Origin: a virus
Length of the DNA stretch: 20,412 bases
Reading direction: 5' to 3' (one strand)
Virus record (IMG/VR): IMGVR_UViG_3300017758_000198
Coordinates: 1-20,412 of that record
The notes beneath the pieces were generated by a model that was not told the origin of the DNA, searched no databases, and saw only the letters and a list, made by a program, of their open reading frames with translations. Shown here one piece after another: positions 10,050 through 19,197 of the stretch. The translations under genes and the position numbers were made by a program. Numbering within the stretch: the stretch's first letter is position 1; each line of letters begins with the position of its first letter.

Positions 10050-12236
10050 TTAACTATTTGATCCTGTTCTTACATTTCTGTAGTATTCGTCAAGAGTGTT
10101 TATTGCTCCTTTTGCAGTTATGTAAGCAGGAATCGGTTTATCTAATTTATTTGATACATCTACCATAAGCAAATCTAATGGTGATGCTCCAACCACATTA
10201 AATGCTGGTGCTTGTACATTAACTGAAGAACTTATTCCAGATACATCTCCACTGCTTAGTATTGATTTTGCTTGGTTTACTGCTGAAAGTAGTGTAGCTA
10301 CTTGAGCTGCATATGTTGCTGCCGCTATAAAAGGGGCTGCTGGGCCAGTACCTTGAGATGCTTCCTGGGCTAACCTAAATCCTTGAATCATACTTACTGA
10401 AGTGTTTGCTGCAATAGCTGTTAAAGAAAGAGCTTTCTGTAGGTCAGAACCTTCTTTGGCGAGTCTAGATGATTCTTCCATTATATCTGCAATACTACTG
10501 GCTAATTGTAATTTAGAGGCAAAAACAGCATCATCTGTTTCCCTAGCTATTCTTTTTGTTTCTTCACCGTAGGTCTTTTCTAGATTTATCTTTCTCTGAA
10601 TTAATCCTTCGTAGGCGTCTCCATCAATCTTAGCTGTAGCTATTTTTGCATTTAAATTAGCTAAATCCTGCTGAAATACGGAATCTAATAATTTTTGTTC
10701 TAATTGTAGCTGAGTACTTTTCTCTCTAGAATACTCCTGCTCGAATGCTATTCTATCTTGAATACCTTTTATTGATTCAGCAGCAAACATTTTTAAATCA
10801 TCCAACCTTTGTTGATCCACAATCTCGTCTTGCATCCTACCGTATGAACCTAAAATAGAAGTGGTTGTTTTCTCAAATTGTACTCCTAAGTCTTGTATTG
10901 TCTTTGTATATTTTCTATTGGCATCAGCTTCCGCTTCAGTAAATTCAGTTATTATTTCAGCCTTTTGCTTTTCAGTTTCAGCCCTATCTAATAATGATTG
11001 TTTTCTTAAATTAAGGTCTAAAATATATTCTTGATATCTTACTTTTTCATTCTCTAGAGCAGTTCTAGCCCTTAGATTTAGTTCTTCAATAGCGAATTGT
11101 TTTTGTAGGTCTAGCTTTTGTATAGCCGTTCTTTTTACTAGACTTAATTCTTTTTTTCTAGCTTTTTGAGCATATTTATCAAAATCATTTAGTCTTGTTT
11201 CATACAATTCAAAAGTAGCTTCTCTGTCTAATTTAGCAGCTCCTTTCTTTGTTTCCAGGTCAAATAACTTTTCTAATCTAATTTTTTTCCTAAGAAGCTG
11301 AAGTTCTTCGGTAAGTGCTGTCTGTCTGTCGGCTGTATTTTGCCTAAGCACTAAATTACCTTCATCATCTACCCTGCTTAACCTTTCTCCAGCAATAGCT
11401 AATTGTCTTCTAACCTCTAGCAATTCTCCAAACTTTTTTCTAAGTTCGTCTTGAGCAGCTACACCAGATAATATCTTATCTTCCTCGAACATATTATCGC
11501 TCCATACAGTCAATGTCGCTCCCTCTTCTATAGCATCCATAGCTTTCTTGAATTCACTAAAAGAGTCAGATAAAAACATATTAGCGTCTGCTCCAAGTTT
11601 CCCTACGTTACCATATTTTTCAACTGCACTAGTTAATTTCTCATATGTGTTAATTTGTTCATCTATGGATTTAGTAGCATCATCCATTGCTTTCTGGAAC
11701 TTATTCACCTCCTTGGTGCTATCGCTAAAGTAAGCTATAATCTTAGGTAGAAATGATATAAGTAACTGAACACCTATCATAACCCCACCAGCGCCTAGCA
11801 AAGAATCTCTTAACTGCTTAAAAGATTCTATTGCACTTCCGTTAGTCCTAACAAAACTTTGTGTTAATGAAACCACCTGTGAAAGGTTATTCGCAATAGC
11901 GGTAAAACCAAAAGAAGCATCAGAAGCTAATCTACCAGTTTCTAGAAGAATAGCGTTATTAAGACCCGCTTGCGCTCTGGCTGTTTTATTAGCACCTGCT
12001 GACCTTAATTGAGCCGCTGCCAAATCTTGCACTTGAAGTTTAGTGGCTTTCCTCTGTATAGCTAGTTTTTGCTCCGCTGTAAGAGCCTCTAATTCTGATT
12101 TTGTTAGCTCATCAAATGACTTAGCGTATAAATCGTTTGAGGCTTTAGCGCTGTCAGTAGATTTTTTTACATTACCTAATTTAGCTTCAGCTTTACCAGA
12201 ATTTACGTTTATACTAACTAGAATTTCTTGCGCCAT
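10050..12236 (-). CDS. Tail tape measure protein
   Basis: A 728-residue protein, the second longest in the window. Its N-terminus (MAQEILVSINVNSGKAEAKL) is followed by GRLASDASFGFTAIANNLSQ at 101-120, a motif I recognise from Bacteroidota tape measure proteins. A hydrophobic segment lies at about 147-170 (GVMIGVQLLISFLPKIIAYF). Long coiled-coil helices run through about 180-600. An alanine-rich hydrophobic C-terminal region lies at about 602-660 (AIAANTSVSMIQGF, PAAPFIAAATYAAQVATLL). Tape measure proteins set the tail length at about 0.15 nm per residue, so roughly 110 nm here. The upstream 52-aa frame overlaps its start by 23 nt, and the gene ends 4 nt from the protease start. Confidence 0.85.
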   Translation of the reverse strand: MAQEILVSINVNSGKAEAKLGNVKKSTDSAKASNDLYAKSFDELTKSELEALTAEQKLAIQRKATKLQVQDLAAAQLRSAGANKTARAQAGLNNAILLETGRLASDASFGFTAIANNLSQVVSLTQSFVRTNGSAIESFKQLRDSLLGAGGVMIGVQLLISFLPKIIAYFSDSTKEVNKFQKAMDDATKSIDEQINTYEKLTSAVEKYGNVGKLGADANMFLSDSFSEFKKAMDAIEEGATLTVWSDNMFEEDKILSGVAAQDELRKKFGELLEVRRQLAIAGERLSRVDDEGNLVLRQNTADRQTALTEELQLLRKKIRLEKLFDLETKKGAAKLDREATFELYETRLNDFDKYAQKARKKELSLVKRTAIQKLDLQKQFAIEELNLRARTALENEKVRYQEYILDLNLRKQSLLDRAETEKQKAEIITEFTEAEADANRKYTKTIQDLGVQFEKTTTSILGSYGRMQDEIVDQQRLDDLKMFAAESIKGIQDRIAFEQEYSREKSTQLQLEQKLLDSVFQQDLANLNAKIATAKIDGDAYEGLIQRKINLEKTYGEETKRIARETDDAVFASKLQLASSIADIMEESSRLAKEGSDLQKALSLTAIAANTSVSMIQGFRLAQEASQGTGPAAPFIAAATYAAQVATLLSAVNQAKSILSSGDVSGISSSVNVQAPAFNVVGASPLDLLMVDVSNKLDKPIPAYITAKGAINTLDEYYRNVRTGSNS

Positions 12237-17154: not shown

Positions 17155-17693
17155 TACACAAATTTTATCGTTTTACCCTTCAAATCAAATCCTGCCTCCA
17201 TTAGTAGTGCCTCGACATTGTCTTTTACATCTGCCACAACAGGCTCTATTAGTTTCAGATTCTTCAGATGAGCATTTACTGTTCTTTCTATAAAGTTGTT
17301 CGGTCTCGTTCCTACTTTGTTTATCTTCTCTGTAATCCTTGATGCCAGTCTCCTTGTAGTCGGATCGTTTACGTCTCTTAATGTTACCGAGAATCTCTTT
17401 GTTTCGTATTTTACTGGTTTTGCTACTATCCATTCAGCTATTTCGTTTACTTCTGCTGTTTTAGTTCCTTTTTCTACTTCTAGTAAATAATCGTTACCTA
17501 CTATCTCAAATATACCTTTTCCGTAATCAACCACCTTTAAACTCCTAGAACCTTCACCTGTGGCATCAATAGCAGGATTGTCATAACCAGACCTGTCCTG
17601 TTGAGGTGTAGCCATCTCTTTCTTTAGAAGCCCTACTAGCTTTTCAGCATAAGACTTCATATAGGCTTCGGTATTTTTAGTTTTTATGGACAT
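17154..17693 (-). CDS. HK97 gp10-like head-tail joining protein
   Basis: A 179-residue protein with the general layout of gp10-type tail completion proteins: an N-terminal helix (EAYMKSYAEKLVGLLKKEMA), a beta segment (RSLKVVDYGKGIFEIVGNDY, LLEVEKGTKTAEVN), a 'WIVAKPVKYETKRFSVTLRD' segment, then RRLASRITEKINKVGTRPNN and FIERTVNAHLKNL. 'GTRP.NFIERT' near the C-terminus is typical of this family. It overlaps the tail terminator-like gene by 10 nt. The pair would close the top of the tail and join it to the head. The assignment is by pattern. Confidence 0.6.
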   Translation of the reverse strand: MSIKTKNTEAYMKSYAEKLVGLLKKEMATPQQDRSGYDNPAIDATGEGSRSLKVVDYGKGIFEIVGNDYLLEVEKGTKTAEVNEIAEWIVAKPVKYETKRFSVTLRDVNDPTTRRLASRITEKINKVGTRPNNFIERTVNAHLKNLKLIEPVVADVKDNVEALLMEAGFDLKGKTIKFV

Positions 17694-18175
17694 TGGCTAC
17701 CATCTGCGTTAATTAAGCCCATATCGTTGTTAGGCATATTTATATTAACCGTCATCGACCATCCTGTTACTTTGTTCTCGAATCTATCCTCAAACAATTG
17801 TGCCTGTGGATTACCTTCAATCTCAAAATTAGCATCGTACAAACCACCTCTTCGCAAAGATGACTGTAGACCATTAACAACGTTTAAAAGGCTGTTATGC
17901 ACATCGTGAGTATTATCTAAGCCTAAATGCGGGTCTACCTTATCTAACTTATTATCTTTATCCTCGTCTACCATATCCATTACGATAATGTTTAGACTGG
18001 CAGTCATAATGTACTCACCAAAGGTTATGTTGGAGATTCCGATATGTGCCAGGGGAAAAATAGTCTGCTTTGACAAATCTACTTCTAACAGATCACCGAA
18101 TGTTACGGTATTGATTAGCTGACTACCGTTTAGGTAGGTGTATAGTTTGTCAATTAGGTTATAATAGGTTTTCAT
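17684..18175 (-). CDS. Tail terminator/completion-like protein
   Basis: A 163-residue protein. It starts MKTYYNLIDKLYTYLNGSQL, continues INTVTFGDLLEVDLSKQTIF with PLAHIGISNITFGEYIMTAS, then LNIIVMDMVDEDKDNKLD, and ends with SLRRGGLYDANFEIEGNP and FEDRFENKVTGWSMTVNINM. This 'NTVT.GD...VDL.KQTIFPLAH', 'MD.VDE', 'L.RG.LY' and 'F.DRFEN...GW' order is a recurrent flavobacterial phage protein that sits between the tail chaperone and the gp10-like gene. Small alpha/beta proteins in this position usually cap the tail tube. Its ATG overlaps the stop of the frameshifted chaperone frame (ATGA). Confidence 0.65.
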   Translation of the reverse strand: MKTYYNLIDKLYTYLNGSQLINTVTFGDLLEVDLSKQTIFPLAHIGISNITFGEYIMTASLNIIVMDMVDEDKDNKLDKVDPHLGLDNTHDVHNSLLNVVNGLQSSLRRGGLYDANFEIEGNPQAQLFEDRFENKVTGWSMTVNINMPNNDMGLINADGSQCP

Positions 18176-18456
18176 TTGTTATACTGTTTCTTTATCATTT
18201 TTGCTTCTAACTCATTTTTCTCTTTCTCAAACATTAAGAACGTTAAGCATTGGTGTATTGGAAGGGCTGTAACTTCGTCAAATCGTCTGACATCTCCTTT
18301 AGCGAGTGCATAAATTGACTGATACCAACCCCACTTTTCTCCAAAGCCGTCTTCAGAGCTAAGTTGGTACTGCTCTCCTTCTCCAGAATTGCTGCTGTAT
18401 AATTCAGGGTAGCCTTTGACAACTGAGTCCCTAAACGATAAAAAAAAACCGTACAT
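18172..18456 (-). CDS. Overlapping -1 frame extension of the tail chaperone (GT-like)
   Basis: This frame overlaps the 233-aa gene and continues 71 nt past its stop. As a free frame it begins MYGFF, but its probable use is by -1 frameshifting at the nine-T run (18440-18448). That would add 89 residues from LSFRDSVVKGYPELYSSN to the first 168 residues of the chaperone, giving 257 aa. Its distinctive core FGEKWGWYQSIYALAKGD, then VRRFDEVTALPIHQCLTFLM and FEKEKNELEAKMIKKQ is the conserved 'KWGWY..IYALA.GD..RF..VT......C' tail assembly segment of related phages. Its stop forms an ATGA overlap with the next gene. Tail assembly chaperones of this type bring tape measure and tube subunits together. 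Confidence 0.75.
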   Translation of the reverse strand: MYGFFLSFRDSVVKGYPELYSSNSGEGEQYQLSSEDGFGEKWGWYQSIYALAKGDVRRFDEVTALPIHQCLTFLMFEKEKNELEAKMIKKQYNK

Positions 18457-18944
18457 CCTAGTGCCACACTTAATGGCATCTCTTTCATTAGTTCCGTTAT
18501 CTCATCATTCGGTTTATACGGAGCAATCGTATACTTATCTCCCTTAGAGAAATTAACAGGACGGTATAGTACAGCCATAGCTTTATGCATATTGTCCCAA
18601 TCTCCAATTGTTGCCTCAACATCTATATACTCTCCCAGACTCATATCATCTAGTTTAGGTATAAATCCCATATCGACATCTAACAGATCAAACCGTAAGG
18701 TGTGGTCATAATCCCTCTCAAAAGCCATTTTAAGAGCTTCTAAGAGCTTTTCTATGTCTCTAAGGGGTATAGAGTCCACTAACTCGTATTCAATGCCGCA
18801 GAAGGCTTCTATGAGCTTCTTGTTAATTACCTCGGCATCCTTTTCCTCATCTAATCCCTTAATGGAGGATAAATACTGTTGGTATTGCCCTAGTGTAACT
18901 TCCTCTAAGGAATCTGGCACAATAAGTTTAACTTCTGTTGACAT
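18243..18944 (-). CDS. Tail assembly chaperone, 0-frame product (G-like)
   Basis: A 233-residue acidic protein. It starts MSTEVKLIVPDSLEEVTLGQ with YQQYLSSIKGLDEEKDAEVI, has a GFIPKLDDMSLGEYIDVEAT motif (about 93-112), continues with KAMAVLYRPVNFSKGDKYTI and ends with helical segments (LGTQLSKATLNYTAAILEKE, HSLKEMSDDLTKLQPFQY). 'P.LDDMS.GEYID...' with 'MAVLYRPV' and 'DKY.I..Y' is a recurrent combination in phage tail assembly proteins of this host group. At codons 166-169 (V-F-F-Y) the mRNA has nine consecutive U residues, where a -1 shift leads into the overlapping frame. Two products from one start would match the lambda G/GT strategy. Confidence 0.75.
   Translation of the reverse strand: MSTEVKLIVPDSLEEVTLGQYQQYLSSIKGLDEEKDAEVINKKLIEAFCGIEYELVDSIPLRDIEKLLEALKMAFERDYDHTLRFDLLDVDMGFIPKLDDMSLGEYIDVEATIGDWDNMHKAMAVLYRPVNFSKGDKYTIAPYKPNDEITELMKEMPLSVALGCTVFFYRLGTQLSKATLNYTAAILEKESSTNLALKTALEKSGVGISQFMHSLKEMSDDLTKLQPFQYTNA
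18440..18450 (-). promoter_or_regulatory. Putative -1 ribosomal frameshift slippery site
   Basis: The minus strand reads GGTTTTTTTTTATCG, nine T residues. In the chaperone frame it is GTT TTT TTT TAT, so a slip of one base at the last two TTT codons keeps full tRNA pairing and continues as TTA TCG TTT AGG in the overlapping frame. Nothing as clear as a following pseudoknot is visible to me. The same run is also a place where a sequencing or assembly error would change the count. Confidence 0.65.
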
Positions 18945-19197
18945 ATTATAGTAATTGGATTATGGTTTTATGTATCTTAAACAATATCATCTGACTGGGT
19001 GGCATATCTTAGTATACAGTATGTATATATATTATTATATATATCTTTATTATGTACATAATTATATAGCATAATAGTATACATATAGTTTATATATACA
19101 GTATAGTAAGTATACTGTATGTACAATATATATAATCCCCTTTTCTTTCTTATATATACTATTATATATAGTGCTGTCAAAAAGACAGTTGGAGATA
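18945..19197. repeat. AT-rich palindromic island between two genes
   Basis: A 253-nt stretch without a supportable gene. It is extremely AT-rich and full of TATA/GTATAC steps. It contains a perfect 10-bp inverted repeat with a 5-nt loop at 19096-19120 (ATACAGTATA ... TATACTGTAT). It also has an imperfect direct repeat of AGTATAC[AT]GTATGTA at about 19011 and 19109, a further TAGTATACATATAG near 19076, and a small hairpin CTGTC-AAAAA-GACAG at 19174-19188 just past the preceding stop. The only long frame across it would be a Tyr/Ile-rich 67-residue product, which I reject. Possible roles are a regulatory or replication-type site, or a processed intercistronic RNA. Confidence 0.6.
19096..19120. 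repeat. Perfect 10-bp inverted repeat
   Basis: ATACAGTATA (19096-19105) is the exact reverse complement of TATACTGTAT (19111-19120), separated by GTAAG. It could form a hairpin in RNA from either strand or be a dimeric protein-binding site. It is not followed by a T-run on either strand, so it is not a typical terminator. Confidence 0.8.

Follow-up and report, generated by a model that had tools for sequence, protein, structure and literature searches.

The question raised by this locus is whether two overlapping reading frames that meet at a run of nine T form one gene with two products, and if so which machine, the RNA polymerase or the ribosome, makes the slip between them. The gene lies on the minus strand of the window, by which we mean the whole stretch of 20,412 nucleotides that was analysed. 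ORF A (18243..18944, coordinates checked) encodes the unshifted, gpG-like product of 233 aa and matches PHROG 32199 with an E-value of 7.8e-16. The putative slip site (18440..18448, minus strand) is a run of nine T, read as GTT TTT TTT TAT in the 0-frame and containing the heptamer T_TTT_TTT; on the plus strand it appears as nine A, and it is the sole A/T run of at least nine in the 20.4 kb window. The -1 frame, B, is open from 18501, stops at 18172 and would measure 94 aa if counted from the ATG at 18456. As used in the fusion (18172..18441, minus strand) it is the gpT-like extension and supplies 89 residues, LSFRDS...QYNK, before the stop. A slip after F168 joins residues 1-168 of A to these 89 residues of B, giving a fusion of 257 aa. 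Counted from the 18456 ATG, A and B overlap for 214 nt (18243-18456), and the dual-coding stretch proper, consisting of 65 codons of A and its stop that are read as B in the -1 frame, occupies 18243..18439 (minus strand). The stop of B overlaps the start of the next gene as ATGA (18172..18175, minus strand), and that gene (17684..18175, minus strand) encodes 163 aa of unknown function assigned to PHROG 30964. The coordinates, the 214-nt overlap, the nine T, the F168 junction, the 257-aa length and the ATGA had all been given in a preliminary description of this DNA, and every one of them holds on the minus strand. Just upstream of the slip gene, positions 18960-19180 are strongly AT-rich with TATA-like repeats, a possible promoter or regulatory region.

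We gathered relatives by scanning viral contigs and, once, bacterial genomes, with confirmation by tblastn. This yielded over 400 loci, and removal of duplicates left 330 unique homologous pairs, which fall into more than 50 clusters that share less than about 60% identity. These viruses of Bacteroidota range from marine phages to gut Bacteroidales prophages (among them Dysgonomonas and Prevotella prophages) and the cultured Nonlabens phage P12024L. B is in the -1 frame relative to A in 330 of the 330 unique pairs, and the junction run consists of nine T in 295 of them, ten T in 35 and fewer in none. The same run, the same phase relation and two open frames thus recur in 330 unique relatives, and a T-run with two open frames at this frequency is far beyond chance. 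The comparison demonstrates, at the level of sequence, both the frame relation and the conservation of the T-run, and it answers the earlier question of whether the run is conserved (at least nine T in 330/330 unique relatives) and bears out the earlier claim that a programmed frame change joins the frames, as indicated by the constant -1 relation together with the constant run. Judged by this recurrence, the two-product gene is real and deeply conserved.

P12024L has nine T at the junction. In this phage (L160 12001-12695, NC_018272) the two annotated genes gp40 and gp41 are the halves of one slip gene, entered in the record as two hypothetical genes, and gp41 is annotated to begin ~30 residues into the true extension. 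PHROG 32199 and PHROG 38404 are likewise the two halves of the slip gene (gp40 and gp41 of Nonlabens phage P12024L/S), which the PHROGs catalogue keeps apart as unrelated families without known function, with no annotation of the junction. A tblastn search of cultured phages with the fused protein and deeper relatives returned Nonlabens phages only, or nothing.

The preliminary description had proposed a G/GT-style frameshift. The programmed slip stands, while its ribosomal nature is not established, and the evidence leans to transcriptional slippage. The run reaches at least nine T in several codon phases around full Phe codons, according to lineage: nine T are composed as 2+6+1 in most sequences, as 1+6+2 in Bacteroidales-type sequences and as 0+9+0 in one (L353), and ten T as 2+6+2 and 0+9+1. 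A change of the eighth T to C would be silent in either frame and would keep a heptamer, T_TTT_TTC, but it is found in 0/284 of the T9 sequences in the main phase (phase 2). It would be expected in 29-51% of cases [in these genes TTC accounts for 29% of all Phe codons and for 51% of those followed by a codon starting with T]; taking the lower rate over 58 clusters below 60% identity, the chance of its absence is ~3e-9. No RNA structure was found in the 60 nt downstream of the run (mean z +0.09 for 55 sequences, relative to mononucleotide shuffles only), and SD-like motifs occur in just 2/54 sequences; against this as an argument for the polymerase, lambda G/GT also functions without a strong stimulator. 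In many bacteria, nine is also the A/T run length at which selection acts against transcriptional slippage, and Thermus dnaX uses a nine-base run for transcriptional slippage (PMC1088944). Because the run is never seven or eight T, the T8-to-C change is absent, structure is lacking and SD-like motifs are almost lacking, we favour the polymerase, and consider it somewhat more likely than not, from these sequence patterns, that the slip is made during transcription. The evidence points to slippage by RNA polymerase over -1 frameshifting by the ribosome, and falls short of proof.

The alternative that survives best is ordinary -1 programmed ribosomal frameshifting on T_TTT_TTT, with the full nine T being partly a by-product of the flanking amino acids; we regard it as possible, but it is not the reading to which we give most weight. 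In every relative T_TTT_TTT is phased as tandem -1 slippage by the ribosome requires, UUU may be more slippery than UUC on the ribosomes of these hosts, and P2 slips on T TTT TTG. The first and ninth T can be explained in the main lineage by the residues on either side (V/L/I before, Y/W after), although a ribosomal heptamer requires seven T, and at least nine are kept in several codon phases. Ribosomal frameshifting of G/GT pairs is widespread in tailed phages (PMC5009743). The missing T8-to-C change speaks against this alternative all the same, as the last position of a heptamer is normally tolerant and none of the 284 sequences carries the doubly synonymous C, and so do the missing conserved downstream structure and SD-like element (55 and 54 sequences, respectively). 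Runs outside the slip sites were counted in 54 representative loci (434 kb). A/T runs of at least ten are absent elsewhere (0 vs about 12 expected) and A runs of at least nine are depleted (9 vs about 29 expected), whereas coding-strand T runs of at least nine are not (8 vs about 5 expected); the first two counts speak for the polymerase and the last against it. Coding-strand T runs of 7-8 outside the slip sites are commoner in these loci than a Markov model predicts.

The preliminary description had also held that the stretch after the slip codes in two frames at once, and had suggested comparing synonymous sites in the overlap. Four-fold variation is lower inside the overlap for both frames: for A, difference at four-fold sites falls from 0.647 before the overlap to 0.289 within it, and for B it is 0.365-0.388 within the overlap against 0.566-0.598 after it. 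As a null model, we recoded B randomly with synonymous codons and scored the effect on the tail of A (200 simulations for the set of 42 sequences). For the 42 divergent representatives the null model puts 142 ± 8 stops (minimum 121) into the A tail, where none is observed, and gives a tail identity of 25.2 ± 0.4%, where 37.0% is observed; among 31 representatives, 99 stops are predicted and again none is observed. The four-fold and recoding figures carry no correction for phylogeny, although synonymous sites outside the overlap are near saturation. Part of the excess similarity of the tail could come from shared ancestry or from constraint at the RNA level. The claim of coding in two frames at once is upheld by these results, which demonstrate selection on both frames as far as codon comparisons can and support the view that the 0-frame tail codes in its own right and is selected as such.

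It is unlikely, in our judgement, that the slip is real while the 0-frame tail is a functionless by-product passively imposed by the codons of B. Such a passive origin would accommodate the position of the most conserved tail residues, GVGI, which face KWGWY of B, as well as the variable length of the tail, which has 65 codons here, 23 to 87 among relatives and just 24 in P12024L. It does not accommodate the absence of stops against 142 ± 8 expected and the identity of 37.0% against 25.2% in the 42 sequences given B, nor the drop in four-fold variation of B itself from 0.598 after the overlap to 0.388 inside it. We therefore retain the tail as a selected coding frame, the function of which is probably lineage-specific in detail because its length varies so widely.

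A separate B gene with its own start codon is very improbable. The window does have a B-frame ATG at 18456, and GenBank lists gp41 of P12024L separately, but 248/257 relatives have no B-frame ATG ahead of the conserved tryptophan, 160 of the 257 have no ATG, GTG or TTG there, and an independent start would leave the invariance of the T-run without a reason. We rejected independent initiation on the count of relatives without their own ATG; the lack of an independent start is demonstrated by these counts, which indicate that B is reached solely through A. The spacing between the stop of B and the next start is -4 in 147/243 relatives (ATGA, as in the window) and -1 in 46/243.

That the locus is a sequencing error or a degraded gene, with ten T and a single reading frame as the true sequence, is scarcely credible: homopolymers are prone to error and a T10 fusion does exist in one Dysgonomonas prophage, yet nine T are read in 295 unique relatives from many assemblies and in the cultured phage P12024L, and both frames are under selection. 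A constant T-run, two selected open frames and the rarity of an ATG proper to B together lead us to reject sequencing error, a pseudogene and independent initiation alike. The ten-T form as one continuous gene, which the preliminary description had named as a result that would overturn it, was seen once (L167), the 35 other ten-T sequences keeping two frames; the other such result named there, a lack of conservation in either the 0-frame tail or the T-run, is not what relatives show, as both are kept. L167 (7536-8285, a prophage of Dysgonomonas sp. 520) has ten T in the phase that gives one ORF of 250 aa, and in the genome of that strain a closely similar prophage, L166 (7528-8282), has nine T and two frames. 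The T10 fusion joins the frames at exactly the proposed slip point, and the pair indicates, on sequence grounds, that the fused protein is the natural product.

We used this natural fusion as the model of the fused protein, in place of the window's own 257-aa product. AlphaFold2 predicts its fold with confidence (pLDDT 93.5, pTM 0.85), which argues that the B part is a real domain. For ORF A the AlphaFold2 model has a confident globular N-terminal part (residues 1-185, the boundary being approximate) and a long helix at 158-203 that runs across the slip point, the C-terminal tail being the 65 residues encoded after the T-run. In VIA, the top match of the fused model is the HK97 chaperone 2ob9, with a Z-score of 3.5 that is below the confident range (rmsd 3.8, 80 residues aligned), and we set the HK97 gp13 fold aside as proof of identity at this score. 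Foldseek searches of the viral library BFVD returned many unnamed phage proteins of 240-267 aa and two proteins annotated as tail assembly chaperones (E about 0.01); against the PDB, neither the A model nor the fusion model had a significant match. No Pfam domain scored above the cut-off in A, B or the fused protein, hhalign found no relation to lambda G, and sequence comparison with PDB chains gave no credible homolog, the match to 7uek (E 2.6e-4) covering ~55 residues. A fold like that of the fused model (Foldseek E 2.3e-5) is seen for gp10 of Flavobacterium phage 6H (L418 10040-10927); downstream of it a -1 frame stays open over a long distance, but T9 was not found there.

The gene sits in a virion module with a portal (PHROG 33693) and an XkdF-like protease (PF14550) and, by reading of the sequence, a capsid-like protein and a probable tape measure. 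The latter is a helical protein of 728 aa (10050..12236, minus strand) with weak matches to families without assigned function; its gene is downstream of the slip gene on the same strand and in the same module, five genes away. At 349-2415 the window encodes a structural protein of 689 aa that resembles a run of LamG-like domains and is probably a receptor-binding or adhesin-type tail protein. The preliminary description had called A and B a tail chaperone pair. The G/GT-like architecture is confirmed, and the identity as chaperones is not established by the architecture, the context and the fold match at Z 3.5; these weigh together to make a role in tail assembly chaperoning our best guess and a probable one.

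The mechanism that we favour on balance, with some caution, is slippage of the polymerase on T9 to give products of 233 aa and 257 aa that form a pair like lambda gpG and gpGT. One start would then serve two proteins. Most mRNAs would carry nine U and yield the unshifted 233-aa protein, and in a fraction of mRNAs the polymerase crossing T9 would add one U, so that these messages would be read into the -1 frame and yield the 257-aa fusion, to which the C-terminal domain derived from B would be exclusive. The pair would most likely act as in lambda, as an abundant chaperone accompanied by a less abundant extended form that tail assembly requires, with an evolved C-terminus of 65 residues replacing the usual short overhang in the unshifted form. 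Whether the mechanism extends to a widespread family of Bacteroidota phages, with a G/GT pair that arises from polymerase slippage at an obligatory T9/T10 and an unshifted protein that has its own conserved, dual-coded C-terminus, appears to us evenly poised.

Tail assembly in many phages is governed by G/GT pairs, which are commonly cited as ribosomal frameshifting. A large lineage that keeps at least nine T through different codon phases, and also at doubly synonymous sites, offers a clean natural test of polymerase against ribosome, and its 0-frame tail is an example, in a DNA phage, of dual coding that is deeply conserved. PHROGs 32199 and 38404 gain a shared identity, and two genes that were annotated apart are now joined.

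Compared with known systems, the gene resembles lambda G/GT, HK97 gp13/gp14 and P2 E/E' in having an overlapping -1 second frame without its own start, a slippery junction, a probable place in the tail module and an extended form that gains a C-terminal domain. It differs from these pairs in its greater size, in having a homopolymer, T9/T10 without exception, as its slip site, and in not adjoining the probable tape measure gene; sequence similarity to them was not found. The length of the 0-frame tail, described earlier as unusual, is indeed so: after the slip the 0-frame continues for about 5 codons in lambda G, HK97 gp13 (a figure taken from the printed position of the heptamer) and P2 E, compared to 65 here and 23-87 in relatives. 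Thermus dnaX, Shigella mxiE and IS elements (PMC1088944) share with this gene a run of nine and two overlapping frames; in them an extra RNA base restores or switches the frame, as is proposed here, but they are cellular or IS genes, whereas this is a phage gene, and in the literature that we searched, polymerase slippage was not described for any phage pair of the G/GT type. A further comparison, gp40/gp41 of Nonlabens phage P12024L/S, has the same gene halves and the same nine T, with a 0-frame tail of only 24 codons. What is new here is the absence of the silent T8-to-C change and the presence of at least nine T across several codon phases, and the marks that distinguish this gene among those of the G/GT kind are its invariant T9/T10 tract and its selected 0-frame tail.
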